Shown here piece by piece: positions 2,278 to 49,295 of a stretch of 64,000 nucleotides of DNA (positions are counted from its first letter, which is position 1; each line of letters starts with the position of its first letter). The position numbers were made by a program, and so were the translations under genes. The DNA comes from an uncultured Alphaproteobacteria bacterium (GTDB taxonomy: Bacteria; Pseudomonadota; Alphaproteobacteria; UBA6615). The notes below the pieces were generated by a model. The model searched no databases. It saw only the letters and a list, made by a program, of their open reading frames with translations, and had not been told where the DNA came from. The stretch lies in the NCBI GenBank assembly GCA_943787745.1, contig CALSNJ010000002.1, positions 942,125-1,006,124 of the forward strand. The letters are read 5' to 3'.

Positions 2278-3768
2278 ATGGACACCCACAGCCCCACACT
2301 TCCCGAATTCGCGTTCGACAACAGCTTCTCGCGTGATCTCGAGGGCTGTTTCGTCGCGTGGCAGGCCGAGGTCACGGCAGCCCCGAAGCTTTTGCAATTC
2401 AACTTCGATTTGGCTGACGAGCTCGGTCTCGATGGAAACGCCCTGAATTCAGAGGCTGGCACGGCCATCTTCTCCGGGAACCAGGTGCCTGCGGGAGCAG
2501 AGCCGCTCGCACAGGTCTATGCAGGCCACCAGTTTGGTGGCTTTTCACCACAACTTGGTGATGGTCGCGCGTTGTTGCTTGGCGAAGTTATCGATATCAA
2601 CGGACAGCGCCGTGATATTCAGCTCAAGGGGTCCGGACGCACCCCCTATTCCCGCAGTGGCGACGGCAAGTCGGCACTCGGCCCGGTGCTGCGTGAATAT
2701 CTGATCGGCGAAGCCATGCATGCGCTGGGCGTGCCCACAACACGCGCACTTGCTGCTGTATCCACCGGAGAGCACGTCCATCGCGAGACCTCCCTGCCCG
2801 GCGGTGTTCTCACCCGGGTTTCGGCAAGCCACCTGCGGGTTGGCAGCTTCCAGTATTTTGCGGCCCGGCAAGAATTCGACAAGGTACGCCAGCTCGCCGA
2901 CTACGCGATCGCGCGCCATCACCCCGAAGCCGCCAAAGCTGACAATCCTTATCTGGCATTCATGCTGTCGGTCGCGGAGGTTCAGGCAAGGCTCGTGTCA
3001 CATTGGATGAGCATTGGCTTCATCCATGGCGTCATGAACACGGACAACGTCACGATCTCCGGCGAGACCATCGATTATGGTCCCTGCGCCTTCATGGACG
3101 CCTATTCGCCCGGGACTGTCTTCAGCTCAATCGACACCCAGGGCCGCTACGCCTACGGCAACCAGCCCGCCATCATGGCCTGGAATCTTGCACGGCTTGC
3201 CGAAGCCCTGATTCCACTGGTCGATGAAGACCGGGACAAGGCTGTTGAAGTCCTGACCGAGATGATCAACACGGTCCCCGATGACTATGAAGAAAAATCC
3301 ATCGCCCGGATGAGGGCCAAACTCGGCCTCGCCACGGCTGCTGACGACGATGTGGAACTCGTGAACGAGCTTCTTACGGCCATGGAACAGGGCAATGCGG
3401 ATTTCACGATGACGTTCCGCCGCCTTTCGGATGCTATGCGCGGCAATGCAATACCCGTTCAGGGTCAATTTGACGGCCTGCAGGGCATCAACACATGGCT
3501 CGACCGCTGGCGCGGACGTCTGGCACAGGAAGACATTGCGCCAGAGACCCGCGCAGCGCAGATGGATCAGATCAACCCGATCTATATCCCTCGCAATCAC
3601 AAGGTCGAAGAGGCCCTGGCAGCTGCGGTGGACGCCGAAGACATGTCGGCATTCAGCAGTCTTCTTACGGTCATCAGCAATCCCTTCGAGGAAGTTGCTG
3701 GCCAGGAAGACTATGCAGCCCCGGCAGCTCCCGCTGCCTTTCCCTACCAGACCTTCTGTGGCACCTGA
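2278..3768 (+). CDS. selO: SelO-type protein adenylyltransferase (pseudokinase)
   Basis: A 496-residue member of the SelO/YdiU family, pseudokinases known to transfer AMP from ATP to Ser/Thr/Tyr of target proteins in oxidative-stress control. Family blocks are QVYAGHQFGGFSPQLGDGRA, LKGSGRTPYSRSGDGKSALG, REYLIGEAMHALGVPTTRAL, the HGVMNTDN catalytic-loop region and the DYGPCAFMD metal-binding motif. The C-terminus ends in FCGT, the bacterial counterpart of the selenocysteine-containing tail of eukaryotic SelO. Length is normal. The stop codon overlaps by 11 bp a small downstream gene, and two methionine sulfoxide reductase genes converge on the pair, fitting a redox-stress role. Confidence 0.95.
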   Translation: MDTHSPTLPEFAFDNSFSRDLEGCFVAWQAEVTAAPKLLQFNFDLADELGLDGNALNSEAGTAIFSGNQVPAGAEPLAQVYAGHQFGGFSPQLGDGRALLLGEVIDINGQRRDIQLKGSGRTPYSRSGDGKSALGPVLREYLIGEAMHALGVPTTRALAAVSTGEHVHRETSLPGGVLTRVSASHLRVGSFQYFAARQEFDKVRQLADYAIARHHPEAAKADNPYLAFMLSVAEVQARLVSHWMSIGFIHGVMNTDNVTISGETIDYGPCAFMDAYSPGTVFSSIDTQGRYAYGNQPAIMAWNLARLAEALIPLVDEDRDKAVEVLTEMINTVPDDYEEKSIARMRAKLGLATAADDDVELVNELLTAMEQGNADFTMTFRRLSDAMRGNAIPVQGQFDGLQGINTWLDRWRGRLAQEDIAPETRAAQMDQINPIYIPRNHKVEEALAAAVDAEDMSAFSSLLTVISNPFEEVAGQEDYAAPAAPAAFPYQTFCGT

Positions 3769-4527: not shown

Positions 4528-5026
4528 GTCGGGGCAGTTTCCAGCCGGGTCGTACAAAGTGGCATGTATAGCCATTCGGGAAACGCTCCAGATAGTCCTG
4601 ATGCTCGGGTTCGGCGTCCCAGAAATCACCAACTTTCTTGACCTCGGTCACGACTTTCCCTGGCCACAAACCAGAAGCATCCACATCCGCAATGGTGCGC
4701 TCGGCTTCGGCCTTTTGCGCGTCATCCACATAGTAGATGCCGGACCGGTAAGACGGCCCCATGTCGTTGCCCTGGCGATCGGGTGTCGAGGGGTCATGGA
4801 TCTGGAAAAAGAACTCCAGCAGGTCACGAAAACTGATCTTCTCCGGATCGAAGACGATCTCGATGCCTTCAGCATGGGTGCCGTGGTTGCGGTAAGTCGC
4901 ATTCGGCACGTCGCCTCCGGTGTATCCAACACGTGTGGACTGCACGCCCGGCATTTTGCGGATCAGGTCCTGCATGCCCCAGAAACATCCACCGGCAAGA
5001 ACCGCTCGCTCCGTTTTCTCGCTCAT
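4511..5026 (-). CDS. msrA: Peptide-methionine (S)-S-oxide reductase
   Basis: A 171-residue canonical MsrA. The active-site motif [10 protein letters not shown] holds the nucleophilic Cys at about residue 14, followed by [45 protein letters not shown] and [11 protein letters not shown]. It repairs oxidised methionine in proteins using thioredoxin. Its C-terminus [16 protein letters not shown] overlaps the start of a second MsrA-like gene on the same strand, so the pair is likely one transcript. It converges with selO and its small partner. Family and function are certain from the motifs. Confidence 0.95.
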
Positions 5027-5191
5027 TTCCCTACTCCCGTATGTCCACTTTGCCCGTTCCAGCGCAAATGTTGATCCAACATCACACTGGTGCCGTAATA
5101 TAACACGCCTATTATTCAGGATATGGGTCTTGCCACCCGTTTGGACAACAGTTCGTTCCGATACCCATCAGCCAATCGAAAGGCACACTCT

Positions 5192-6582
5192 ATGACACGT
5201 TTAACTGCGAAAGATTTCGATCAGGGTCTGCTCGACCTTTACGACTATTACGCGCATGGCAGAATTACCAAGCGTGAATTTCTTGACCGCGCGGGACGCT
5301 ATACCGTCGGTGGTGTGACAGCCGTTGCGCTGTTCAACATGCTCAAGCCGGACTACGCGATGGCCGAGCAGGTTTCCTTCAATGATCCCGAGATCAAGGC
5401 CACTTTCGAAACCTATGACTCCCCCAATGGCAATGGTGAGGTTCCGGGATAGATCCGGATAGGCTTGATACCGACCCTTGCCAACCAGTCCTGCATCGCT
5501 TCCGCGACGAACTCGGGGCCATTGTCGGAACGGATATATTCTGGAGTGCCGTGGCGCAGGAGTAGCGGGTAGAGCGCCTCAAGGACATCGTCAGCTCCCA
5601 TCCTGGTGCGGACCGCGACCGCTAGAGCCTGACGGGTGTACTCGTCGAGAACTGTCAGCATCTTGTAACTCCGACCGCTGTCGAGCTTGTCGTGTACAAA
5701 GTCGATGCTCCAGACGTGGTTCGGATGGGTCGGCCGCAGCCGTATGATCGAAGCATCCTTGTGGTAGAGCCGTCGGCGCTTCTTGTGCCGTTGCGGCAGT
5801 TGAAGGCCTTCTTCGCGCCAGATCCGCTCAACCTTCTTGTGGTTCACCTTCCAACCTTCGATGCGCAGCAGTTCGGCTATCTTGCGATAGCCGTAGCGTC
5901 CGTATTGCTTGGCCTGCTGGATCAGGGCCAATCGCAGAGCATCATCAAAGGCTATGTCGTGAAACCGGCCAATGCCACGGGCAAACTGCCTGCTGTGCTT
6001 GTCATCCACGAAAATCGTGGCCTGAACCCCTACATCAAGGATGTCGCCCGCCGGGTCGCCAAAGCTGGCTTTATGGCTCTCGCACCAGACGGTCTAACTT
6101 CTGTTGGCGGTTATCCCGGCAATGACGCAGATGGCAAGGCGCTTCAGCAAACAGTCGACCGCACCAAGCTGATGAACGACTTTTTCGCCGGATACGAACA
6201 CCTCGCCGCCCGCGAGGATTCAACCGGCAAGGTGGGCGCCGTCGGTTTTTGCTATGGCGGCGGTGTCTGCAACGCGCTCGCCGTGGCCTATCCCGAACTG
6301 AACGCGTCGGTCCCCTACTATGGGCGCCAGGCCAAAGCCGAGGACGTGCCCAGAATTCAGGCCCCCCTGATGCTTCACTACGGTGCGCTCGACAAACGTA
6401 TCAATGCCGGATGGCCCGACTACGAGGCCGCCCTGAAAGCCAACAACAAAACCTACGAAGCCTATATCTACGAAGACGCCAATCATGGCTTCCACAATGA
6501 CTCCACGCCCCGCTACGACGAGAAAATGGCAGAGCTGTCCTGGGACCGCACCATCGGCTGGTTCAACAAATACCTGACATAG
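5192..6582 (+). pseudogene. Dienelactone hydrolase family gene (YghX-like) split by an IS3 fragment
   Basis: Two parts of one gene. The first, 5192-5443, encodes 84 residues starting MTRLTAKDFDQGLLDLYDYY and containing a Tat-like or secretory segment (DRAGRYTVGGVTAVALFNML). The second, 5947-6582, encodes 211 residues with [40 protein letters not shown], the nucleophile motif GFCYGGG and the terminal catalytic His in ANHGFHND. Between them lie 503 bp of IS sequence. Joining 5443 to 5947 restores a 295-residue frame of normal family length with GEV followed by KGYVV, so nothing was lost. As it stands the first part stops at 5452 inside the IS piece. The enzyme would hydrolyse a carboxyester or lactone. 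Confidence 0.88.
5444..5946 (-). mobile_element. Internal fragment of an IS3-family (IS407-type) transposase orfB
   Basis: A 503-bp piece that matches, with few differences, the inside of orfB of the IS at 48474-49660. On the minus strand it runs from [20 protein letters not shown] through the DDE core ([22 protein letters not shown]) to IRIYPG. It has neither inverted repeat, lacks the last catalytic Glu and lacks orfA, so it cannot have moved by itself. It sits exactly between two codons of the dienelactone hydrolase gene and no target duplication is visible. A recombination or repair product, or an assembly join at a repeat, are the main explanations. Confidence 0.9.
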
Positions 6583-6585
6583 CCG

Positions 6586-8817
6586 CTAAATCCTGACCCC
6601 GCCCGTGATGCTCATCTGTTTCTTGAGTGCGCGGGCGGACAGGATGACCACCAGAACAACAAGAAGCGCACCACCAATATTAGCCGGCAGGTTCAGGGGC
6701 CAATAAGCCCCTGCCGCACCGACAATCAGCATTGGCACCGTCAGGACGTTGAGCGGGCCTTCGGAATAGAACTGGATCAGCGCGTTCGTCGCGTAGATCC
6801 CGAACAATCCAAAGAAGCCGATCTGCATCACCTCGTACCACTCCCCCGATATCAGCGGCGTGTAGGCAAACATCAACGGCACGATGTAGAGACCTTTCGC
6901 GATTTTCCAGGACTGGAACCCGGTCGCCATCGGTTTCGAGCCGGCAATGCCGGCAGCGGTGAACGCCGCCAGACACACTGGCGGTGTGACATTGCTGTCC
7001 TGACTAAGCCAAAACACGATCAAGTGGGCTGTCAGCAAGAACGTGGTCAGCATCGCCGGATCGACCAATGCGGGGCGGATCACAAGCGCAAGCTCGAACG
7101 GCATCGACCCCATTAGGGCCTGAGCCTGATCCCGGGTCATGCCCTCCGCCAACAGCGCCACATGCGGACTATCGACCAAAGCAAACAGCGCCGCTTTCGC
7201 AGGGTCGGTAATCCCCACAACCAACTGGTCCACAATGATCGAGTCAGAAAGGATGCCCGCCAACGCGGGTGCCGTCAGGCTTGCCAGTATGATGTAAGCC
7301 GCCGTGACGGGAAGTCCCATGCCCAGTATGAGCGAGGCCAATCCAATCAGGACAATTGCGATGATGACCGAACCCTGAGACCATTGCGCGATCATGATCG
7401 AAATCGAATTGCCCACGCCACTGGTCACAACAGCGTTGTTCACGACCCCGATCGCGACCAGCAGGATACCCGTCATGATGGATGTCTGTATGCCGCTCAC
7501 AAGCGCTTCGCTGATGCGTTTTGGTCCCATTGAGACAGGCTCAAAGAGATTGCTTCCGAGGACTTTGGCCAAGAGGGTGGTCGTCCAGGACACAAGGATC
7601 AGTGCGGCGATAGCCCAGGAGGCCGCAAAACTCGGTGTGACACCGCTCATCAACAGCCAGATCATCACCGCAAGCGGCAATACAAAGACAAGTGCGCCAG
7701 AGAGCAATTTTCCGCGGTTGACCACGAGATCCATCTCATTGCCGACCTGATGCTTGACCGCCTCAATCCGCACAATAAATGCGACGGAGAGGAAGTATAA
7801 AAGCGCGGGGACAACTGAGACTGCAACGATGGTTCCATATGGGATGGATGTGTAGCTGGCCATGACAAAGGCGCCAGCACCCATGATCGGTGGCATCAAC
7901 TGACCGCCGGTCGAAGCTGCAGCTTCCACGCCAGCCGCAAACTTCCCCCGAAACCCATTTGATTTCATTAGGGGAATGGTGATCACGCCGGTGGAGGCCG
8001 TGTTCGCAACTGCCGAACCACTGATCGTCCCCGTCAACGCCGAGGAAATCACAGCGACAAACGCCGCCCCGCCCCGGGTTTTACCGGCAACAACCTTGGA
8101 TATCTCGATGACGAAACCGCCCGCGCCCGAAACAACCAGAAACCCGCCGAAAATCATGAACAGCGTGATGCTGGAGGACGAAATGCTCGCCAGAATGCCG
8201 AGCATGCCCTCATCATTATAAAGTGTACGAAACAGCACATCATCGATCGGCAAACTCGCGGCGCGAAACACACCGGGAAGATAGGAACCGAGGAACAGAA
8301 TGTAGGACAGCGACAGCACGATCAGAGTCGGAATCACCCAGCCAGAAACGCGGCGCGAAAAATCCAGTGCAGAGAAGATCAGAATCAATCCCGCAACCCA
8401 GTCGACCGCCGTCAACTGAATGGGTTGTCCGGTCACGGCAAGAGAGCGCGCATAAATTCCGGATTCTGCCGATGCCACCCAAAGCGCGGAGGCCGCAACG
8501 ATCAATCCATAGGTAATATCAAAAGCGAGTGCCCAACGTGTATGGGTCCGCTTTCCGAACAGGCTAAAAGTAATGGAGGCGAGAAATGCAAACCCGCCAT
8601 AGTGGATCGCATTCTGCCAAAAGCCCGGCTCAACCAGCCAGATATTCGTCAGAATATGCCAAATCGCGAAACAGACGGCGAACGTGACCACAAGCCACCG
8701 CAGAGGATCTTTGCCCATACCCTCAAGCAAGAACAGATATTGACGACTACCATTTGAAGATTGTGATTTATCCGCTACGCCATCTGCAATGGCGGCACTG
8801 CCACTCACATCCACCAT
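6586..8817 (-). CDS. TRAP transporter fused permease (4TM + 12TM), TAXI type
   Basis: A 743-residue inner-membrane protein with many hydrophobic helices. It joins the small DctQ-like and large DctM-like permease functions of TRAP transporters. Diagnostic stretches of the DctM part are GSAVANTASTGVITIPLMKS, GGQLMPPIMGAGAFVMASYT, GMGLPVTAAYIILA and PPVCLAAFTAAGIAGSKPMA. It imports an organic acid or related solute using the sodium or proton gradient, with the binding protein encoded just upstream (8892-9890). The start ATG at 8817 lies only a few bases beyond the T-run of an intercistronic hairpin, so its expression relative to the binding protein is probably reduced. Substrate unknown. Confidence 0.93.
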   Translation of the reverse strand: MVDVSGSAAIADGVADKSQSSNGSRQYLFLLEGMGKDPLRWLVVTFAVCFAIWHILTNIWLVEPGFWQNAIHYGGFAFLASITFSLFGKRTHTRWALAFDITYGLIVAASALWVASAESGIYARSLAVTGQPIQLTAVDWVAGLILIFSALDFSRRVSGWVIPTLIVLSLSYILFLGSYLPGVFRAASLPIDDVLFRTLYNDEGMLGILASISSSSITLFMIFGGFLVVSGAGGFVIEISKVVAGKTRGGAAFVAVISSALTGTISGSAVANTASTGVITIPLMKSNGFRGKFAAGVEAAASTGGQLMPPIMGAGAFVMASYTSIPYGTIVAVSVVPALLYFLSVAFIVRIEAVKHQVGNEMDLVVNRGKLLSGALVFVLPLAVMIWLLMSGVTPSFAASWAIAALILVSWTTTLLAKVLGSNLFEPVSMGPKRISEALVSGIQTSIMTGILLVAIGVVNNAVVTSGVGNSISIMIAQWSQGSVIIAIVLIGLASLILGMGLPVTAAYIILASLTAPALAGILSDSIIVDQLVVGITDPAKAALFALVDSPHVALLAEGMTRDQAQALMGSMPFELALVIRPALVDPAMLTTFLLTAHLIVFWLSQDSNVTPPVCLAAFTAAGIAGSKPMATGFQSWKIAKGLYIVPLMFAYTPLISGEWYEVMQIGFFGLFGIYATNALIQFYSEGPLNVLTVPMLIVGAAGAYWPLNLPANIGGALLVVLVVILSARALKKQMSITGGVRI

Positions 8818-8831
8818 GAACTATCCCCCAC

Positions 8832-8865
8832 AAAAAAAGGAGCGGAAGACAAAGTCTTCCGCTCC
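8832..8865 (-). terminator. Intercistronic hairpin with T-run (attenuator) between TAXI binding protein and permease
   Basis: On the minus strand a perfect 12-bp stem, GGAGCGGAAGAC paired with GTCTTCCGCTCC around a 3-base loop, is followed at once by seven T residues (A-run at 8832-8838 on the plus strand). This is a textbook rho-independent terminator between the binding-protein stop and the permease start. It would let the soluble binding protein be made in excess over the permease. Confidence 0.85.
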
Positions 8866-8891
8866 CTACTTTTACCTACATGCGTGAAAGC

Positions 8892-9890
8892 CTACTGAGC
8901 CATCAGGCGAGCCGGCACATCAAGACCGACTTCCTTGTAATAGCGCGCAGCACCCGGATGCAGCGGCACCGGCAGACCTGCCATGGCGTTTTCAACAGCC
9001 ATGACCTTCGTTGCCGGATGGATTGCTGACAAGAACCCGAGGTTTTCATACATGGCCTTGGTCAGCTGATAGACATGCTCTTCGTCCACATCCGCGTTCA
9101 CCGCCAGGAAGTTGGGCTGCGCAATGGTCTGTACAGCTTTGTCCTGCCCCGGGTAGGTACCCGCTGCAATGGTGTAGGGAACCCAAAGATTGCGACCGCC
9201 ATCCATGGCCTTACCCTGCTCCGGCGTCACATCAAGGATAGTGAACTTGCCGGCATTCGAAGCCATCAGCTTCGTGATGGCACCTGTTGGCGGGCCAGCA
9301 CCCAGACCGGCGCCAACGGCCTGCCCGTTTGCCATTGCGTCAGCCGTCGGGCCATAGCCCGCGTAAACCAGTTTGAAATCCTTGTTGATATCGAGCCCGA
9401 GCCCGGCAAGCAGGACCGTGTTCGATCCGATCGTGCCAGAGTTCTGTTTGCCCATGCCCATGGACATGCCCTTGAGAGCCACCAGATCACCGACCGTACC
9501 GGTCTTGACCTGGTCGTTGTTGAGTACGAACTGCTCGACGTTCTGCCACAGCATGGTGACCGAACGAATGTTCTTCTGCGGGGCTGTCACCGGACCAGTG
9601 CCGGTTGCCGCGTAAGAGCCAAAAAGGCCCTGCAAGATGGCAAAGTCAGCCGTACCGGCACCCAGTGCCTGCACATTCGCGCCCGAACCGGCCGAGTTAA
9701 CGGCAGTCAAACTAAATTTTTTCTTCGGCAGGAGCTTCACTTTCGACAATGTCGAAATCGCGGTGCCAACCGGATGATAGGTGCCACCTGTTGAGGCGGT
9801 ATTGAGGACATAGTCCTTGGACTGCGCGTGCGCCATGGTGGCCGAAAGGGCAAGCACGGCACCAGCAGCGAGTGCTGTAAACTTCTTCAT
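8892..9890 (-). CDS. TAXI-family TRAP transporter solute-binding protein
   Basis: A 332-residue periplasmic binding protein. Signal peptide MKKFTALAAGAVLALSATMA with cleavage near AHAQ. The mature part starts KDYVLNTASTGGTYHPVGTA, typical of TAXI proteins, and has TADFAILQGLFGSYAATGTG and LDVTPEQGKAMDGG later. I chose the ATG at 9890: GGAGG lies eight bases before it, whereas the ATG six bases earlier would be almost on top of the Shine-Dalgarno sequence. It binds a solute and hands it to the fused permease downstream. A dctB/dctD-like two-component system is encoded just upstream and is the likely regulator. Confidence 0.92.
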   Translation of the reverse strand: MKKFTALAAGAVLALSATMAHAQSKDYVLNTASTGGTYHPVGTAISTLSKVKLLPKKKFSLTAVNSAGSGANVQALGAGTADFAILQGLFGSYAATGTGPVTAPQKNIRSVTMLWQNVEQFVLNNDQVKTGTVGDLVALKGMSMGMGKQNSGTIGSNTVLLAGLGLDINKDFKLVYAGYGPTADAMANGQAVGAGLGAGPPTGAITKLMASNAGKFTILDVTPEQGKAMDGGRNLWVPYTIAAGTYPGQDKAVQTIAQPNFLAVNADVDEEHVYQLTKAMYENLGFLSAIHPATKVMAVENAMAGLPVPLHPGAARYYKEVGLDVPARLMAQ

Positions 9891-9999
9891 ATTCATTTCC
9901 TCCAGAATTAACTCAACCGATTGCACGGCTTGGGATAAGTGGTAACGGTGCCACCATAGTCCGACCATGAAGAAAATTGCCATCTAACGTGGCCCAGCC

Positions 10000-10015
10000 C
10001 TGCGGATTTCCGCAG
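10000..10015. repeat. Short inverted repeat after the dctD-like gene
   Basis: CTGCGGA and TCCGCAG form a perfect 7-bp stem around two bases, 9 bp beyond the dctD stop codon and about 110 bp upstream of the TAXI gene. It lacks a clear T-run, so it could be a weak terminator or an operator for the binding-protein promoter. I cannot choose between these. Confidence 0.45.
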
Positions 10016-10023
10016 AGCCGAGA

Positions 10024-11370
10024 TTAGACCTCGCCCTGTAAAACCTCGTCCTTGTTCAGGCCCAGCTTTACGATCTTCTCATTCAGGGTACGTCGTCCGA
10101 TGCCAAGGGCTTCGGCCACCGCATCCATCCGCCCCTGATGGGTGGTCAGAGCCCGTGCGATCAACTGACGTTCAAATCCAGCGACCGCTTCACGCAGCGT
10201 ATCGGGAACATCATCATCTCCGCTGTCGAGTTGCAACGCAGAGGCCACTGACCCCACGCCTCTTCGTGCCGCCAGGATGCGTCTCTCGGCGACGCTTCTC
10301 AGTTCTCTCACATTGCCCGGCCAAGGATGCGCCAGAAGCGTGGCAAGATCATCGGAAGTTATTCCCGGCGACGTTATCTCGTAAATCACCGCAAATTGGT
10401 CCAGGAAATTGGCATAGAGCAAGGGAATGTCATCACGACGTTCGCGCAGCGCCGGTATCGTCAACACGACGGTGTTGAGGCGGAAAAAGAAGTCCTCCCG
10501 CAGCGCGCCAGCCTTCAGGGCGTCTTCCAGCTTCTCGTTGCCTGCAGACACGACCCGAAACCCCGATTGCCGAACCTGCGTTGAACCGACCGGCGTGTAA
10601 TGGCGCGTTTCAATCACGCGCAGCAAAGCCGCCTGCGCCTCGGTGGGAATTGCCCCCAATTCATCGAGAAATAATGTGCCCCCGTCAGCCTGCGCCAACA
10701 GGCCATCGGGCATATCCGGACTGCCAAACAGTGTCTCCTCAAACGTCATGAGCGGGATCGCAGCACAATTGATTGGCACAAAGGGTCCGCCCGCCCGCGC
10801 ACCGAGATCATGCAAGGCTCTTGCAACGAGTTCCTTGCCGCTCCCGGTTTCACCGCGCAACATGACGTTTGCGTCGCTTTCGCTCAGATCGAGTATCTCT
10901 TCCCGCAACGACACAATGTTTTTGGTGGCGCCCAGCAGCACACGATCCAAGCCGGTCAGATCGGCAAGGCGGGCTTTCAGGCGCTCTGAATCACGTGACA
11001 ATCGATAGAGTGTCGCCGCATCCTCAAGCAGCTTGAGCAGGTGCCTTGGATCGAACGGCTTCTCAACAAAACTATAGGCCCCGTCCTGCATGGCACTTAC
11101 CGCCATTGAAATATCGCCATGGGCGGACATCAGCACCATCGGTACAGATGTCTTCCCTTGCAACATTTCCAACAGTTCAATCCCGGTCACACCCGGCATG
11201 CGCACATCACACAGAATGACGTCTGGCCCATATGACGCCAGTTTCTCGAGAACGCCACTGGCCCTTGGCAGGGCTTCAACGTCGAACCCTCCGCTTTCGA
11301 GCAGATCGCAAAGGGAGTCCCGCAACCCACGGTCGTCATCAATCACCAGCACACGGTAGTCGTTGACCAT
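10024..11370 (-). CDS. DctD-like NtrC-family response regulator lacking the GAFTGA loop
   Basis: A 448-residue regulator. Receiver domain residues 1-120 with the phospho-acceptor Asp in VILCDVRMPGVTG. AAA+ domain with Walker A GETGSGKELVARAL, Walker B GGTLFLDELGAIP, the arginine-finger region LREDFFFRLN and PALRERRDDIP. The C-terminal Fis-type helix-turn-helix is QGRMDAVAEALGIGRRTLNE. Between ETLFG and LLAQADGG, where activators of sigma-54 carry GAFTGA, the sequence reads SPDMPDG: the loop is missing. Members with that loop deleted generally cannot engage sigma-54, so this one may work with sigma-70. The sensor kinase gene lies 2 bp upstream; the likely target is the TAXI transporter operon. 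Confidence 0.9.
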   Translation of the reverse strand: MVNDYRVLVIDDDRGLRDSLCDLLESGGFDVEALPRASGVLEKLASYGPDVILCDVRMPGVTGIELLEMLQGKTSVPMVLMSAHGDISMAVSAMQDGAYSFVEKPFDPRHLLKLLEDAATLYRLSRDSERLKARLADLTGLDRVLLGATKNIVSLREEILDLSESDANVMLRGETGSGKELVARALHDLGARAGGPFVPINCAAIPLMTFEETLFGSPDMPDGLLAQADGGTLFLDELGAIPTEAQAALLRVIETRHYTPVGSTQVRQSGFRVVSAGNEKLEDALKAGALREDFFFRLNTVVLTIPALRERRDDIPLLYANFLDQFAVIYEITSPGITSDDLATLLAHPWPGNVRELRSVAERRILAARRGVGSVASALQLDSGDDDVPDTLREAVAGFERQLIARALTTHQGRMDAVAEALGIGRRTLNEKIVKLGLNKDEVLQGEV

Positions 11371-11372
11371 TT

Positions 11373-13088
11373 TCAGGCAATCTCCTCAGCCAGTGGGATC
11401 GACACTTCAAAGTCGGCCCCACCTTTCTCATTCTGATGCGCTGTCAGGAAACCACTATGTTCCTTCACGATTTCCGCTGTGATGGACAGACCCAACCCCA
11501 TGCCATCTCCCGATGCACGTGTGGTGTGAAACGGCTCCTGCATTTGCTGCAACTCACGCCCCCCGAAACCGATGCCATTGTCACTAATGCGCAATATAGC
11601 CCGACCGGCATCTTCACGGATTGAGACAGACAACACAGGCGCCTCAATCGTCTCCAGTGCGGCAAGTGCGTTACGCATCAGGTTCACCAAAACCTGTTCC
11701 AGCCGCAATCGATTCCCGAACACCCGCACCGGCCTGGCCGCAATATCCTGTTCGAGATGCACCTGTGCCTCCTCGACATCATGCTCCATCAAGGTCATCA
11801 CACCCGCCAGAACGTCCTGTAGCGAAACAATCTCGAGCGCTTCATCTCCGGGCTTGGTGAAGAATCTCAGCTGCCGGGTGATGTTTTCCATACGACTGAC
11901 AACGGCACTCAGCTTGTCCAGGGTCTTGCCGGACATCCGGTCACCGTCCAGCTCTGCTGCGGTCAAATAGTTGCGCATGGCTGAAATCGGTTGGCCCAAC
12001 TCGTGGGTCACAGATGCGGACAACTGACCAAGTGCAGCGAGTTTACTTCTCCGCGCCAGTTCCTTTTGTGCCAGATTGATCTCAGCATTCGCCGCCAGGA
12101 GCTGCGCGCGGTCTGCCTGTGAGGCCCGCAACGCTGCCTTGATCCGCACAGAACGTTGGAAGGTCGCGAACGCCAGCAACACCGACAAAACCCCTCCGAA
12201 AATAATCGTGGTGAGAGCGGCGCGTTCATATCCACGGCGATTGTCGAGCAGGTAATGGACGTTCCAGCCCAAGCGTTTGGCGCGGGTTGAAGCATAGATG
12301 AATTCCTGATCACCGACGGACACCGTTGTCGGGGAGGCCTGTTCCCAATCGAACGCCAGCAGGGGTTCATTGCCAAACTGTTTTCCCGCTGCGATCGCCG
12401 CCTGCTGGTTTGCAGAAAGCTCCGAAAGTGTCTGATAGAGCCATTCGGGATTCGAGGAGAGCACGATCACACCGTCACGGTTGGAAACGAACACGCGCTC
12501 CCCGCCCTCTTCCCACGCTTTCTGCAGCTCGCTCATATCGAGTTTTATCGCGATCACCCCGGTCACTTCACCAAGCGGGGTCCTCACCGCCTCAGACACG
12601 AAATAGCCCGGTCGCCCCGTGGTGGCCCCAATCCCGAAGAACTGCCCGCGTTCCCCCTCCAGAGCATTCTTGAAGTACGGGCGGAAGCCATAGTTCTGAC
12701 CGACGAATGTTTGCGGCGCGTTAAAATTCGAAGCCGCAAGAACGAGCCCGGTACGATCCATCAGATAGATCGCCTCCAGCCCGGCTTCTTCCGAAAAACT
12801 GGCGAGTTGCTCGTTCAGGCGCCTGTTGGAGGTTGCCGCTGCGCCCGCAATGACAATCGGATAGCGCGACAGCACGGAAGGCAGGTGCTGAAATCGCTCA
12901 ATCGTTTCATTGAGAGATCGCGCATAGAGAGAAAGTCGACTCTCGGCTTCCTCGATCTCGACCGATTTGAAATAAGACAGGGAAACAAAAAACAGGCTGG
13001 ATACGGCGACCACCGCAATAGCGATCAAAACGACCACAACGCTACGACGCGCCGTTTCCGGAATTGTAGTGTCCAGTTCAGCAGACAA
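11373..13088 (-). CDS. DctB-like sensor histidine kinase
   Basis: A 571-residue membrane kinase. A first transmembrane segment at about residues 17-38 and a second near 285-305 enclose a periplasmic double-Cache sensor (EGERGQFFGIGATTGRPGYF is typical of DctB sensors). A short coiled linker leads to the HisKA box ALGQLSASVTHELGQPISAM with the phospho-acceptor His, then N-box LMRNALAAL, G1 box DNGIGFGG and G2 GDGMGLGLSI. It probably senses an organic acid outside the cytoplasm and phosphorylates the adjacent DctD-like regulator. Spacing of 2 bp indicates a shared transcript. It differs from classical dctB in regulating, by context, a TAXI rather than a DctP transporter. Confidence 0.92.
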   Translation of the reverse strand: MSAELDTTIPETARRSVVVVLIAIAVVAVSSLFFVSLSYFKSVEIEEAESRLSLYARSLNETIERFQHLPSVLSRYPIVIAGAAATSNRRLNEQLASFSEEAGLEAIYLMDRTGLVLAASNFNAPQTFVGQNYGFRPYFKNALEGERGQFFGIGATTGRPGYFVSEAVRTPLGEVTGVIAIKLDMSELQKAWEEGGERVFVSNRDGVIVLSSNPEWLYQTLSELSANQQAAIAAGKQFGNEPLLAFDWEQASPTTVSVGDQEFIYASTRAKRLGWNVHYLLDNRRGYERAALTTIIFGGVLSVLLAFATFQRSVRIKAALRASQADRAQLLAANAEINLAQKELARRSKLAALGQLSASVTHELGQPISAMRNYLTAAELDGDRMSGKTLDKLSAVVSRMENITRQLRFFTKPGDEALEIVSLQDVLAGVMTLMEHDVEEAQVHLEQDIAARPVRVFGNRLRLEQVLVNLMRNALAALETIEAPVLSVSIREDAGRAILRISDNGIGFGGRELQQMQEPFHTTRASGDGMGLGLSITAEIVKEHSGFLTAHQNEKGGADFEVSIPLAEEIA

Positions 13089-33304: not shown

Positions 33305-34465
33305 ATGGTGAGCGCATCCCGGGCACGGCCGCTTTGGGACCGCGTCGCCGAATGGAACTGCCGTCTCGAGATGATCGAAACTGCCAGGCAGTTCCTATAC
33401 CTGTCGACCTTCTATATCGAATACGACCGCTTTGGTGTCGCAGCACTGGAGGCTCTCCTGCGAGCCCAGCGTCGCGGCGTCGAGATCAATCTGTTGATAG
33501 ATGGATTCGGTCAGATGCTGGGTAATGTGGTGATGTCGAAACAGGACAGGCAAGCGCTGGCCATCGGGTTGCAGGAACTGCAGGCGGCCGGGGCAACAGT
33601 AACGATTTATCGACCGAAACACTTCATGCAACGACGACTTGGTGGAGGCCAGCATGTCAAGCTGCAGGTATCCGAGGCTGGCGAGGCGATATTCGGCAGC
33701 AGCAACCTGACCCGATCCTCTTTCGAGGGATGGAACGAATACTCAGTTGCCCTCCGCGGTTCGGTAGTTACTGCGTTGCTGCAAAGCTACCGGCAAATTG
33801 GCGGTACAGTACGGACAGCTCACCTTCGTCAGCTTGAAGACGCCGCCCAGTCAACTGTCGTGGAGCAACCAGCCATTGAGCTTGAATACTGGTTCTGCAA
33901 CCCAAACCTTGCCCAGGGCGCCTTTGGTCCCTTGGGCTGGCGCGGCCCCAACTCCGTGACGGAAAGATTACTGGAGATGGTGCATGAAGCCCGTGAAACC
34001 ATCGAGATCACCAGTTTCTACTTCAAGCCGGTGCCGGCGTTGATGGATGCTTTGGTCGAGGCGGCCACGCGGGGGGTACTTGTCGACGTGTATCATTCAC
34101 ACCGAGAGGCTTTGCCCGCAACCGACCTCGCCTGGATAGCCTCAGCGGCTGGCTTTGAGCAGTTGCTCAGCTCGGGAGTTCGAATCTTCGAGAACCGGCA
34201 CGGTGAGCACTCCAAGATTATACTGGTGGATCGCACTCGTGTAGCCTTTGGTAGCTACAACTTCGAGGATGCTGCCCATGACCGATTGGCCGAAGCGATG
34301 CTGGCCTCGCGTGATCACCACCTGGTCACTCCGGCAGCCTCGATCTTCGATGGGCTGCAGCAAGACCCCGACAACGTAATCGTGACTCCAGCGACTATGG
34401 CAGCCCTGCCAGGGTCTTTGCGGCGGCGCCTCGCCTTGTACGGTCGTTTCAAAAGATGGATGTAG
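33305..34465 (+). CDS. Phospholipase D-like (cardiolipin synthase family) protein
   Basis: A 386-residue protein with two PLD half-domains. The first HKD-like motif is HVKLQVSE (about residue 116), in which the usual Asp is Glu, followed by FGSSNLTRSS. The second is HSKIILVD followed by FGSYNFED (about residue 300). Cardiolipin synthases and phosphatidyltransferases share this layout, but no transmembrane helices are visible, so it acts in the cytoplasm or at the membrane surface. It starts 18 bp after the SDR gene and is likely the last gene of the methyltransferase/folB/SDR operon. Why a PLD enzyme goes with pterin genes is unclear. Confidence 0.82.
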   Translation: MVSASRARPLWDRVAEWNCRLEMIETARQFLYLSTFYIEYDRFGVAALEALLRAQRRGVEINLLIDGFGQMLGNVVMSKQDRQALAIGLQELQAAGATVTIYRPKHFMQRRLGGGQHVKLQVSEAGEAIFGSSNLTRSSFEGWNEYSVALRGSVVTALLQSYRQIGGTVRTAHLRQLEDAAQSTVVEQPAIELEYWFCNPNLAQGAFGPLGWRGPNSVTERLLEMVHEARETIEITSFYFKPVPALMDALVEAATRGVLVDVYHSHREALPATDLAWIASAAGFEQLLSSGVRIFENRHGEHSKIILVDRTRVAFGSYNFEDAAHDRLAEAMLASRDHHLVTPAASIFDGLQQDPDNVIVTPATMAALPGSLRRRLALYGRFKRWM

Positions 34466-34489
34466 CTACGAACACCTGAGGCCAAGTTA

Positions 34490-34664
34490 AACGGATTTCG
34501 GCAACAAACATCGGGCCGAACCGGTTCGACCAAAAACGAACCGTTTCATCGTAGATATCGATCCCACGCTCGAACAACAGATCCTCGACTTGGCGCAGCG
34601 ATCGATGATATCGAATACAAATTATCACAGTCAGGGCAATGGCCTGAATGGAAGCGGCAGCCAT
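34490..34664 (-). mobile_element. Remnant of an IS6-family transposase (N-terminal part)
   Basis: The minus strand encodes IRYHRSLRQVEDLLFERG and YDETVRFWSNRFGPMF, the N-terminal helix-turn-helix region of IS6-family transposases. No catalytic core and no clear inverted repeats remain. Other pieces of the same family are at 39378-39446, 41290-41697, 46788-46838 and 61716-61790. Confidence 0.8.
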
Positions 34665-38493: not shown

Positions 38494-38658
38494 TCCAAAG
38501 AAAACGGGCCAGCAAGAAATCTTACCGGCCCGGTTACGTTTAATTGGTATCGCGAAGAAGTAGCGCGTGCCGCCCCGTGCATGGTTTGCGCATATAAGTA
38601 AAAGCAAACAGCCTGTGCCGGCCAAGTAGTTGGTATCAGCGGACGGGCGGTCGAGCTG

Positions 38659-38931
38659 CTAGTCGTGCGAACGCGCGCAGTTACCTATGCACACGCCTAA
38701 CCCAATCGTGCAAGTCAAGGCATGTGAGTGCGGCACTTCGAGGGCTTCATCGCTGATGCCGCAAGCGCATGGGCCGCAAAAGATGCAAGCGGCTGCTTCA
38801 TGAGCGGGTGCCGCGTCGAGCGCTTCGTCGCTGATGCCGCATAACCACGCGCAGTTCAATGCCTGCTTTATCGGCACGTTTAGCGCTTCGTCGCTCAGTC
38901 CTGTGATGCGTTCGTCTGATGTGTTCATCAT
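38659..38931 (-). CDS. Three-repeat Cys-rich small protein, candidate peptide precursor
   Basis: A 90-residue protein. A GGGAG ribosome-binding site lies eight bases before the first ATG (38931), which supports translation. It consists of three tandem units, each opening with G(L/I)SDEAL(N/D/E) followed by a Cys-containing segment: NVPIKQALNCAWLC; DAAPAHEAAACIFCGPCAC; EVPHSHALTCTIGLGVCIGN. Cysteines number two, four and three per unit. The repeated acidic 'SDEAL' box followed by small hydrophobic and Cys residues recalls leader-core arrangements of ribosomally made peptides, but no modification enzyme, transporter or protease is adjacent. Metal binding is an alternative. No family recognised. 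Confidence 0.7.
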   Translation of the reverse strand: MMNTSDERITGLSDEALNVPIKQALNCAWLCGISDEALDAAPAHEAAACIFCGPCACGISDEALEVPHSHALTCTIGLGVCIGNCARSHD

Positions 38932-39246
38932 ATCTGAAACTCCCTATTTGTTTCTGCGATTACCCTAAGCTTGTGTTGAGCATAACAGACGCCGCTGGAC
39001 GGGCCTGGAGCGCGCACACGCGGGCGGTGCGTTTGAGTCCAACAGGATGCCCATGGAACACCACTCAGCAACCGAGAATCTTTTTCTTATGCGGACTAAC
39101 AGAACACCACGAGAACATGGGGCGCTTGCATGTGCCGTCCATGCGCCCAAGACAGAACCAGACAGGAAAAGACATAATGGGAAACCCTAATAATTCAGGG
39201 GATTAGCCCAACCTCCCCAAAACCAGCTAACCTGGAAAATTCTGAC

Positions 39247-39301: not shown

Positions 39302-39377
39302 CGCAACCGCCGTTACTTGCACCTTAATTATGCAAAGATTTAAAAGTTCCGCCGTTCGCACCAATACCTCATCTTCC

Positions 39378-39446
39378 ACAGATCTCAGCGGCGAACATAG
39401 GACCAAAACGATTCCACCAGAACCGCACCGTCTCGTGGCAGATGTC
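39378..39446 (-). mobile_element. IS6-family transposase remnant
   Basis: The minus strand encodes DICHETVRFWWNRFGPMFAA, the same N-terminal block as at 34490-34664. Only about 23 codons remain, cut off at 39446 next to an IS5-family remnant. Confidence 0.75.
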
Positions 39447-39450
39447 TAGG

Positions 39451-39660
39451 TCATGTTGACAAACTCCTGACCCAGATGCGTGCGGCTGCGATGTGAATGA
39501 ACCCGAGATAGCTGTCGGCTGTTTTGTCATAGCGGGTAGCCAGGCGGCGGGAGCACTTGAGCTTGTTGAAGCAGCGTTCCACCCGGTTTCTGAGGGCGTA
39601 GGTGATGCCGTCGACGAGGATTGGTTCTTTCCGGTTGGCCCTTCCGGGGATGAAGTTGGT
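39451..39660 (-). mobile_element. IS5-family (IS427-type) transposase C-terminal remnant
   Basis: The minus strand reads NFIPGRANRKEPILVDGITY then RNRVERCFNKLKCSRRLATR and YDKTADSYLGFIHIAAARIW to a stop at 39451, the conserved C-terminal part of IS427-group transposases with the catalytic Glu region (NRVERCFN). The N-terminal half is missing. Its edge coincides with the stop codon of the OmpA-like gene, so the insertion may have trimmed that gene's last codons. Confidence 0.85.
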
Positions 39661-40556
39661 TATCGGACAGCCGTCTCAATAGAGGGATACTCAGGCTTTA
39701 TGGTGAGCGTGACCTCAGCCTCTGTACGACGGTTTCGAACATCTGGAACACCATCAGATGTGGCGACAGCAGGAGTAGTTTCACCCAGACCCTCTATGCT
39801 GAAAGTGTATTCACCCGGCCAAGTGGACTTAATGGCATTAACGACAGCCAATGCGCGGGATACGGAGAGCTTTTTATTGTGCTCATCTGTTCCGGAGCGG
39901 TCGGTATGCCCGACGACATGAACATGCAGCTGAAGATCATCCCAGCCTTTCGAAGCGAAGGACTGAATGAGGACAAAGTCCTCTGCGCGTGGTTGCGGCT
40001 GATCTAACTCGTGAAAGACGACAAACTTTGCCTTGGCCTCACCCGCATCGGTGATCTTGATGTCCTTCTGCTGCTCTAACTCGCCAAGAGCATCATTGAA
40101 TGACGTCTGACAGGCAGCAATATGATCGATCTGCCAACCTTCCTCAGCCTGTTCGACCCAGCAATCGAAGCTGGTGATGGCTTTGGCCAGGTTCACCGCC
40201 CCCTCCTCCGGAGGAATCAGCCGCATAGCAATTCTGAGCCGTCCCTGAGCAACCTCGAGGTCATCAACGAACTGCTGGTCAATATTCCAGTCTTTATAGT
40301 TTTCGGGCTGTGCGGCAGCTGGGTCATCGAGAACCTTCAACGCCTTGGCTGCGAAGTAACCGGCGTCCTGCCAGTCCATCATCTGATCAGCCTCAGAGGT
40401 TACGAATTTGCGGTACTCTTCAGCAACAGCTCCACTGTAGCTGGTCGTATCAATGGTCTTTTCCTTCAGCTCTGCAACGTCATAGGCCCCACACGCAGTG
40501 AGAGCTGTGATGAGCCCAAGGAAAAATGTGGCTTTTAACAATGAGGGGGAATTCAT
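39660..40556 (-). CDS. OmpA-family lipoprotein
   Basis: A 298-residue lipoprotein. Signal ATFFLGLITALTACGAYD with lipobox LTAC (lipidated Cys about residue 22). A helical middle region, then an OmpA-like peptidoglycan-binding domain: LHVHVVGHTDRSGTDEHNKK, LSVSRALAVVNAIKS, and GLGETTPAV...NRRTEAEVTL at the end. It would anchor the outer membrane to peptidoglycan. The final codons may derive from the adjoining IS5 remnant. Upstream, 40557-40742 is a divergent region with the bactofilin gene and shows no clear promoter to me. Confidence 0.85.
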   Translation of the reverse strand: MNSPSLLKATFFLGLITALTACGAYDVAELKEKTIDTTSYSGAVAEEYRKFVTSEADQMMDWQDAGYFAAKALKVLDDPAAAQPENYKDWNIDQQFVDDLEVAQGRLRIAMRLIPPEEGAVNLAKAITSFDCWVEQAEEGWQIDHIAACQTSFNDALGELEQQKDIKITDAGEAKAKFVVFHELDQPQPRAEDFVLIQSFASKGWDDLQLHVHVVGHTDRSGTDEHNKKLSVSRALAVVNAIKSTWPGEYTFSIEGLGETTPAVATSDGVPDVRNRRTEAEVTLTIKPEYPSIETAVR

Positions 40557-41289: not shown

Positions 41290-41697
41290 TCATGCCGCCA
41301 GTTGACGCCACTCGGCCAGCGCGTGGGAGCGGTTCTGCTTGAAGACGGAGCGGCTGTTGAGATGGCAGTCGAGATTGGAATGATTGTGGATCGAAGCGTG
41401 TATTGAACCGAACTTTTGACGGGTCTTCACGTCTCTGAATTTCGACATCGCCCCTTCCCGCCTTCGAAACGGCTGGTGTGGATTTTCCACCCGGTTGTTC
41501 AGCCAACGGCCACACTCCTGGTCGCCGGCATTCCCGATCACGTTCATCGCTGCCCGGTACGACCGCAGTCGGTCGGTCACGACCACCTTTGGCCGACCGT
41601 ACCGCTTCATCGCACGCTTGAGAAACTCTATGCGATCCCGCCGTTTCGTCGCAAAGACCACGAGCACCTCACCTTCGTGATCGACCGCTCGCCGCAA
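41290..41697 (-). mobile_element. IS6-family transposase, C-terminal two-thirds (remnant)
   Basis: The minus strand encodes RRAVDHEGEVLVVFATKRRD, GRPKVVVTDRLRSYRAAM with the second catalytic Asp, and RVENPHQPFRRREGAMSKFR with the catalytic Glu, ending AEWRQLAA. The first third and the left inverted repeat are missing; upstream bases 41698-41750 still contain a mutated VDGACMDR. A related 3' end, with an internal deletion, is at 61716-61790 and shares the flank TAATGCGAACCAGTCTC. Confidence 0.85.
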
Positions 41698-48111: not shown

Positions 48112-48473
48112 GTGATCCATACGCGTCAGAAGCTCGCGACGTCAGAGAGACGGACATGCCGGGTGATCGGACTGGCGCGCAGTTCTCTGCAATACCGACC
48201 GGCCCGGCGAGATGATGATGCTCTGCGATTGGCCCTGATCCGGCTGGCCAAGCAATACGGGCGCTACGGCTATCGCAAGATAGCCGAACTGCTGCGCATC
48301 GAAGGTTGGAAGGTGAACCACAAGAAGGTTGAGCGGATCTGGCGCGAAGAAGGCCTTCAACTGCCGCAACGGCACAAGAAGCGCCGACGGCTCTACCACA
48401 AGGATGCTTCGATCATACGGCTGCGGCCGACTCATCCGAACCACGTCTGGAGCATCGACTTTGTACACGACAA
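48112..48473 (+). pseudogene. IS3-family transposase OrfB (copy A), truncated
   Basis: Codes for the HTH_21 region and the first catalytic Asp ([11 protein letters not shown]) and then ends because copy B starts. The second Asp and the Glu of the DDE triad are absent. Confidence 0.9.
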
Positions 48474-48476
48474 TGT

Positions 48477-49295
48477 CTAGCCCCCAAGTTCTGGGCCATT
48501 CCTGATTAGAGTTTCTGGAACAGGAGGGCGCATGTTGAGGGCCTGATGTGGGCGGATGTGATTGTACTGTCTGAGCCACTGGTTGATGACGACCTGAGCC
48601 TGCTTTGTTGTGGTGAACCATTCGGCGTTGAGCACCTCGCGGCGCAGAGTTCCGTTAAATCGTTCGTTGTATCCATTCTCCCAGGGTGACCCGGGATAGA
48701 TCCGGATAGGCTTGATCCCGACCCTTGCCAACCAGTCCTGCATCGCTTCCGCGACGAACTCGGGGCCATTGTCGGAACGGATATATTCTGGAGTGCCGTG
48801 GCGCAGGAGTAGCGGGTAGAGCGCCTCAAGGACATCCTCAGCTCCCATCCTGGTGCGAACCGCGACCGCTAGAGCCTGACGGGTGTACTCGTCGAGAACT
48901 GTCAGCATCTTGTAACTCCGACCGCTGTCGAGCTTGTCGTGTACAAAGTCGATGCTCCAGACGTGGTTCGGATGAGTCGGCCGCAGCCGTATGATCGAAG
49001 CATCCTTGTGGTAGAGCCGTCGGCGCTTCTTGTGCCGTTGCGGCAGTTGAAGGCCTTCTTCGCGCCAGATCCGCTCAACCTTCTTGTGGTTCACCTTCCA
49101 ACCGTCGATGCGCAGCAGTTCGGCTATCTTGCGATAGCCGTAGCGCCCGTATTGCTTGGCCAACTGGATCAGGGCCAATCGCAGAGCATCATCATCTCGC
49201 CGGGCCGGTCGGTATTGCAGAGAACTGCGCGCCAGTCCGATCACCCGGCATGTCCGTCTCTCTGACGTCGCGAGCTTCTGACGCGTATGGATCAC
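48477..49295 (-). CDS. IS3-family transposase OrfB (copy B), complete DDE integrase
   Basis: A 272-residue DDE recombinase. HTH_21 region [20 protein letters not shown]; first Asp in [10 protein letters not shown]; second Asp in YIRSDNGPEF; Glu in NGYNERFNGTLRREVL, the D-D-(35)-E triad. The end reads RPHQALNMRPPVPETL. The frame is open upstream into orfA (AEGLTTEQLRQAV), as expected for production as an OrfAB fusion by -1 frameshifting. Apparently functional. Confidence 0.93.
   Translation of the reverse strand: MIHTRQKLATSERRTCRVIGLARSSLQYRPARRDDDALRLALIQLAKQYGRYGYRKIAELLRIDGWKVNHKKVERIWREEGLQLPQRHKKRRRLYHKDASIIRLRPTHPNHVWSIDFVHDKLDSGRSYKMLTVLDEYTRQALAVAVRTRMGAEDVLEALYPLLLRHGTPEYIRSDNGPEFVAEAMQDWLARVGIKPIRIYPGSPWENGYNERFNGTLRREVLNAEWFTTTKQAQVVINQWLRQYNHIRPHQALNMRPPVPETLIRNGPELGG

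Follow-up and report, generated by a model that had tools for sequence, protein, structure and literature searches.

The window, a stretch of 64,000 nucleotides from an uncultured alphaproteobacterium, contains on its minus strand an intact open reading frame that runs from an ATG at position 38931 to 38659 and encodes 90 amino acids. Its sequence and its paralogues mark it as a precursor gene with three tandem head-plus-core units, in which a head of the form [LIV]-S-D-E-A-L is followed by a spacer and a segment with two to four cysteines. The first head is preceded by only 11 residues (MMNTSDERITG, 38899-38931, minus strand), which are related to the MSNTQDxLTG of the paralogues, so that a separate leader is nearly absent. 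Unit 1 (38836-38898) begins with the docking-like motif LSDEAL (LSDEALN) and carries two cysteines in its core, unit 2 (38758-38835) begins with ISDEALD and carries four, and unit 3 (38662-38757) begins with ISDEALE, carries three and ends in a C-terminal tail, giving nine cysteines in 90 residues. Since a 5-mer present three times in the protein was matched in only one of 20,000 shuffled versions, the repeat is not due to chance, and the three SDEAL-headed, cysteine-bearing units that an earlier note described without naming the strand are confirmed. The same note had reported a good ribosome-binding site; a Shine-Dalgarno-like AGGGAG is indeed present at 38940-38945 on the minus strand, and three paralogues are likewise purine-rich at the aligned position (AAGGAG, AAGGAG, and AAGGAA). 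The window protein has no usable Pfam or NCBIfam match, and the precursor could not be assigned to any family of Pfam, NCBIfam or PHROGs. The gene is solitary and lies amid insertion-sequence fragments recognized by eye, with transposase fragments at 34449-34664, 39369-39679, 41290-41697, and 48112-49295 of the window. Inspection of the window's open reading frames by eye identified no maturation gene near it.

The window gene belongs to a family with several copies in its genome. Two further precursors lie at C6:77384-78924, one frameshifted and the other open with four units, and another four-unit copy is located at C2:406531. A metagenome-assembled genome of the same genus (G005) yielded 27 unit matches and encodes two precursors, one of 11 units and one of at least 16, the latter count being a lower bound because the precursor runs off the contig edge. 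An identical unit occurs in both of these precursors, and one gene contains three identical tandem copies, which makes the units look modular. A third genome (G015) carries a short, partly degenerate precursor-like gene. It has two similar halves (L041:9506-9802) and a parE-like gene nearby, and no YcaO could be detected in G015. Profile searches detected units in three of the 24 genomes of the bacterial family and in none outside it among 385 genomes of the class and 398 of the phylum, and a translated search found no relatives in plasmids or viral contigs. The first unit alignments were too variable for a pattern search. A contig scan with C[RYGT][VI][ES]DEALD returned the same-genus genome alone, although it requires this exact unit-junction pattern and divergent members would escape it. 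The lone PDB match of the unit profile, to CuvA (E 0.11), was weak and taken as chance, and no description of such precursors was found in the open literature searched.

The units share a conserved head and a fixed distance between this head and the first cysteine. Among the 47 DE sites in six precursors, 43 have V, I, L or M two positions before the D and L or I two positions after the E, and as far as the 16th unit, hardly any lacks these two hydrophobic residues. At the codon level, the heads differ mostly in third positions (0.50, against 0.09 for second positions), indicating conservation of the protein sequence. The first cysteine lies 10-11 residues past the second Leu of the head in nearly all units. 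No cysteine occurs within the first 12 residues of any of the 41 full units, and in 38 of them the first one is at index 15-16; the lack of cysteine conservation that the earlier note had named as an argument against its proposal was thus not observed. The cores, in contrast to the head and the motif-to-cysteine distance, vary strongly in the number and spacing of their cysteines; Cys, Pro, Val, Ala, and Gly abound in them, and Ser and Thr are scarce. In sequence, the unit head ([LIVM]-x-D-E-x-L) conforms to the L(X)4L motif of the cyanobactin leader. In the LynD structure, the PatE leader binds the recognition domain (RRE) of the enzyme through this motif, and in the related MprC system, the replacement of both motif leucines by alanine abolishes the product, which is restored by Val or Phe (PMC12455567).

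A GC-rich hairpin of one design lies 3' of all seven precursor genes examined, from three genomes; in the window it resembles an intrinsic terminator and occupies 38505-38532 on the minus strand. All 84 cells of the hairpin alignment pair and six of its 12 pairs covary, changing on both sides, but the hairpins were chosen by eye as such, and the full pairing is therefore partly by construction. The features independent of this selection are the shared GGGCCG...GGCCC stem and its position. The start region is also alike among the four copies in the window's own genome. Taken together, the shared hairpin design and the matching start region show that the window copy and the other precursor genes form one cassette family.

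The only YcaO protein found in this genome adjoins the C6 paralogues. It is of the fused, azoline-forming cyclodehydratase kind, and its best sequence relatives in the PDB are LynD, TruD, and MusD. These matches span the recognition, leader-binding, and YcaO domains, with a LynD match of 1.8e-54 for the YcaO part and a TruD match of 2.4e-4 for the RRE. The enzyme scores above the cut-off of TIGR03882, while its match to TIGR03604 (2e-59) falls below the cut-off owing to the fragmentation of the gene. The neighboring genes encode an ABC transporter, a Band-7 protein, and three DUF697-like proteins, and the locus ends with an RND pump. In G005, the corresponding gene set is in frame and matches the order of the C6 locus, spread over two contigs. 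One contig (C458) carries the ABC transporter, which is 73% identical to that of C6 and passes the cut-off of TIGR01194 (cyclic peptide export), the Band-7 gene, and the end of the YcaO gene (last 254 residues, 66% identical to the copy in the window's genome). The other contig (C15) carries the precursors, two DUF697-like genes, a GNAT acetyltransferase gene, and then the same RND pump (76% identical). Since this arrangement is syntenic with the C6 locus, the two contigs are probably adjacent in G005, and the linkage of enzyme and precursors in that genome is a matter of synteny across both. The maturation genes that the earlier note had suggested looking for beside homologues thus accompany the paralogues and the same-genus relatives, as a YcaO and a TIGR01194 exporter, but none lies near the window gene. 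Precursors and enzyme co-occur in two genomes (p = 0.011, phylogeny ignored); four other genomes of the genus have neither a precursor match nor a YcaO. The YcaO proteins of G013 and of contig C58 of G007 are only 26-28% identical to the C6 enzyme and were not counted as members of this system, and a further one, on contig C60 of G007, was left aside, as it lies with NHLP precursors.

Several accessory functions were also considered. No dehydrogenase was seen within the cluster; a stand-alone SagB-family dehydrogenase is encoded at C5:172026 of the window's genome (L080:8015-9385), with no YcaO or precursor beside it, and is a possible partner in trans that might oxidize thiazolines to thiazoles. 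The searches revealed no dedicated protease to separate the cores. The PatA/PatG proteases (TIGR03895) were detected in neither the window's genome (G000) nor G005, the latter being 87% complete; G005 encodes a C39 peptidase away from the locus, and G000 has none. In both genomes, small DUF697-like helical proteins are interleaved with the precursors (9432-9972, 10559-11128, and 11303-11812 of the stretch C6:68500-88000; L040:1242-1913 and 3006-3524). They are possible immunity or membrane partners, and a structural model (pLDDT 70, built from four sequences) gave no significant structural match.

Considering these findings, the gene is probably, at odds of roughly three in four, a multi-core precursor of an azoline-containing RiPP of the linear azol(in)e or TOMM kind with one recognition motif per core. 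A TOMM precursor places a recognition element before a Cys/Ser/Thr-rich core, to which the L(X)4L head and a mean of 3.1 cysteines per unit correspond; a cyclodehydratase is encoded beside the precursors on C6 and, judging from the synteny of two contigs, in G005, but not locally for the window gene. The proposed chemistry is as follows. Each [LIVM]xDEAL head may serve as a separate L(X)4L docking site, adding a β-strand to the RRE domain of the fused LynD/TruD-like cyclodehydratase and thereby bringing the core, which follows at a distance of 10-11 residues, into the active site. The core cysteines would be converted to thiazolines, after which the enzyme would re-dock on the next unit. Separation of the cores and their export through the TIGR01194 ABC transporter would come last. 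Because this exporter belongs to the locus, the product is presumably an extracellular peptide. The window copy is an orphan in this genome, and its processing would depend in trans on the C6 locus, provided that this locus is still functional. The repeated recognition/core arrangement that the earlier note had suggested is therefore supported at the family level as repeats of head plus core, although a separate leader is hardly present, and the idea is largely right.

Whether the pathway is active in this particular genome is a separate matter. The enzyme locus on C6 is frameshifted in this assembly. There are two frameshifts in the enzyme gene, several in the Band-7 gene, and a single one in each of a DUF697-like gene and a precursor. 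Those inspected are single-base indels clustered at 4709-9980 of the stretch C6:68500-88000, and outside this locus the examined part of the contig is intact and well covered by long open reading frames. The frameshifts may reflect either pathway decay or a local assembly error. In the former case, the window copy would be the unprocessed leftover of an azoline system that is active in relatives. The confinement of the frameshifts to this locus, the isolation of the window copy amid insertion-sequence fragments, and the related genome that retains a precursor-like gene without a YcaO are all consistent with such a relic. The window gene, the C2 copy, and one C6 copy are nevertheless intact and have kept their start region and terminator, and single-base indels could also be sequencing errors; we consider decay a serious prospect with slightly less than even odds. 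As it concerns activity in this genome, it is compatible with the azoline reading of the family.

Two other explanations bear on the family itself. An unmodified, metallothionein-like protein, in which CxxC-type segments bind metal or act in redox chemistry and the acidic heads are linkers, would explain the many CxxC-like pairs in the cores and the high cysteine content of the window copy. However, the variable number and spacing of the cysteines beside a fixed head and motif-to-cysteine distance, and the genes linked to the paralogues, for a cyclodehydratase and an exporter of cyclic peptides, render this explanation highly improbable. Furthermore, neither a metal-domain match in Pfam or NCBIfam nor the fusion to a metal-binding domain that the earlier note had regarded as contrary evidence was found. 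The precursors may also be RiPP substrates that dock once per chain, as in the cyanobactins, which use one RSI for several cores (PMC4663559), with the later heads being chiefly spacers or sites for a protease. A spacing function would not require the two hydrophobic motif positions, which are retained almost throughout the 16 units of the longest chain, and docking once per chain is accordingly the unlikely alternative to docking at every core.

The azoline reading with a motif before each core was compared with the known systems. Cyanobactin precursors contain RSI in the leader and one to four cores, every one of them bordered by RSII and RSIII, and are processed by A and G proteases (review PMC4663559). 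The present system resembles them in its fused recognition/C/YcaO enzyme, its L(X)4L motif, and its several hypervariable cores per precursor (PMC4663559). In contrast to cyanobactins, an RSI-like motif stands ahead of every core rather than in the leader only, the cores number from three to at least 16, and PatA/PatG proteases were not found. The enzyme is a LynD/TruD-like heterocyclase but about equally similar to NHLP-linked enzymes, and since two cyanobactin features are also missing, we assigned the system to the TOMM kind rather than to the cyanobactins. It likewise resembles the TOMMs with NHLP or Nif11 leaders (MprE/MprC), whose NHLP-linked fused cyclodehydratases are about 38-42% identical and whose precursors have an LSDE(D/Q)L-type motif before the core. 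These precursors, however, consist of a long folded leader and one core, whereas the units here are short and tandem; no NHLP or Nif11 domain was detected with Pfam and NCBIfam in the window protein up to E = 10 or in the 11-unit precursor up to E = 0.1. Single pre-core motifs in other systems include LSEEEL in a cyanobactin precursor, LSDEQL in a thiocillin-type precursor of Thalassospira, and LSDEDL or close variants in the NHLP precursors of G007. Heterocycloanthracin-type TOMMs also have precursors encoded distally from the maturation genes (PMC4603692), but their enzyme depends on a separate F protein; the likeness to the window gene is one of gene placement. The microviridin precursor AMdnA similarly carries several cores per chain, each processed independently (PMC5934393), but it differs in its ATP-grasp macrolactone chemistry and has three cores.

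The handling of several cores per chain by heterocyclases is known mainly from cyanobactins, in which one leader motif serves all cores. We lean towards the view that the present family represents a new precursor architecture for YcaO enzymes, in which each core has its own docking motif and a chain of up to 16 or more units would constitute a string of independent substrates, giving a shufflable library of polythiazoline peptides. The relatives with an adjoining enzyme point to a previously undescribed route to many modified peptides from one chain. A docking motif before each core offers a natural test of whether docking at each core is sufficient and of whether modification is processive or distributive, and the modular-looking units are attractive for peptide engineering. 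Automated RiPP mining would probably miss these precursors because they are absent from the profile libraries tested.

Two further gene sets were noted during the comparisons. One, a separate RiPP cluster within this bacterial family, comprises a row of about a dozen NHLP-leader precursors followed by a fused cyclodehydratase (5125-11150 of G007:C60:28000-47500). In the other, on plasmid pHY1 of Methylovirgula sp. HY1, a Gly/Cys-rich precursor-like open reading frame missing from the gene table (L072:6826-7299) directly precedes the genes for a fused cyclodehydratase and a SagB dehydrogenase.
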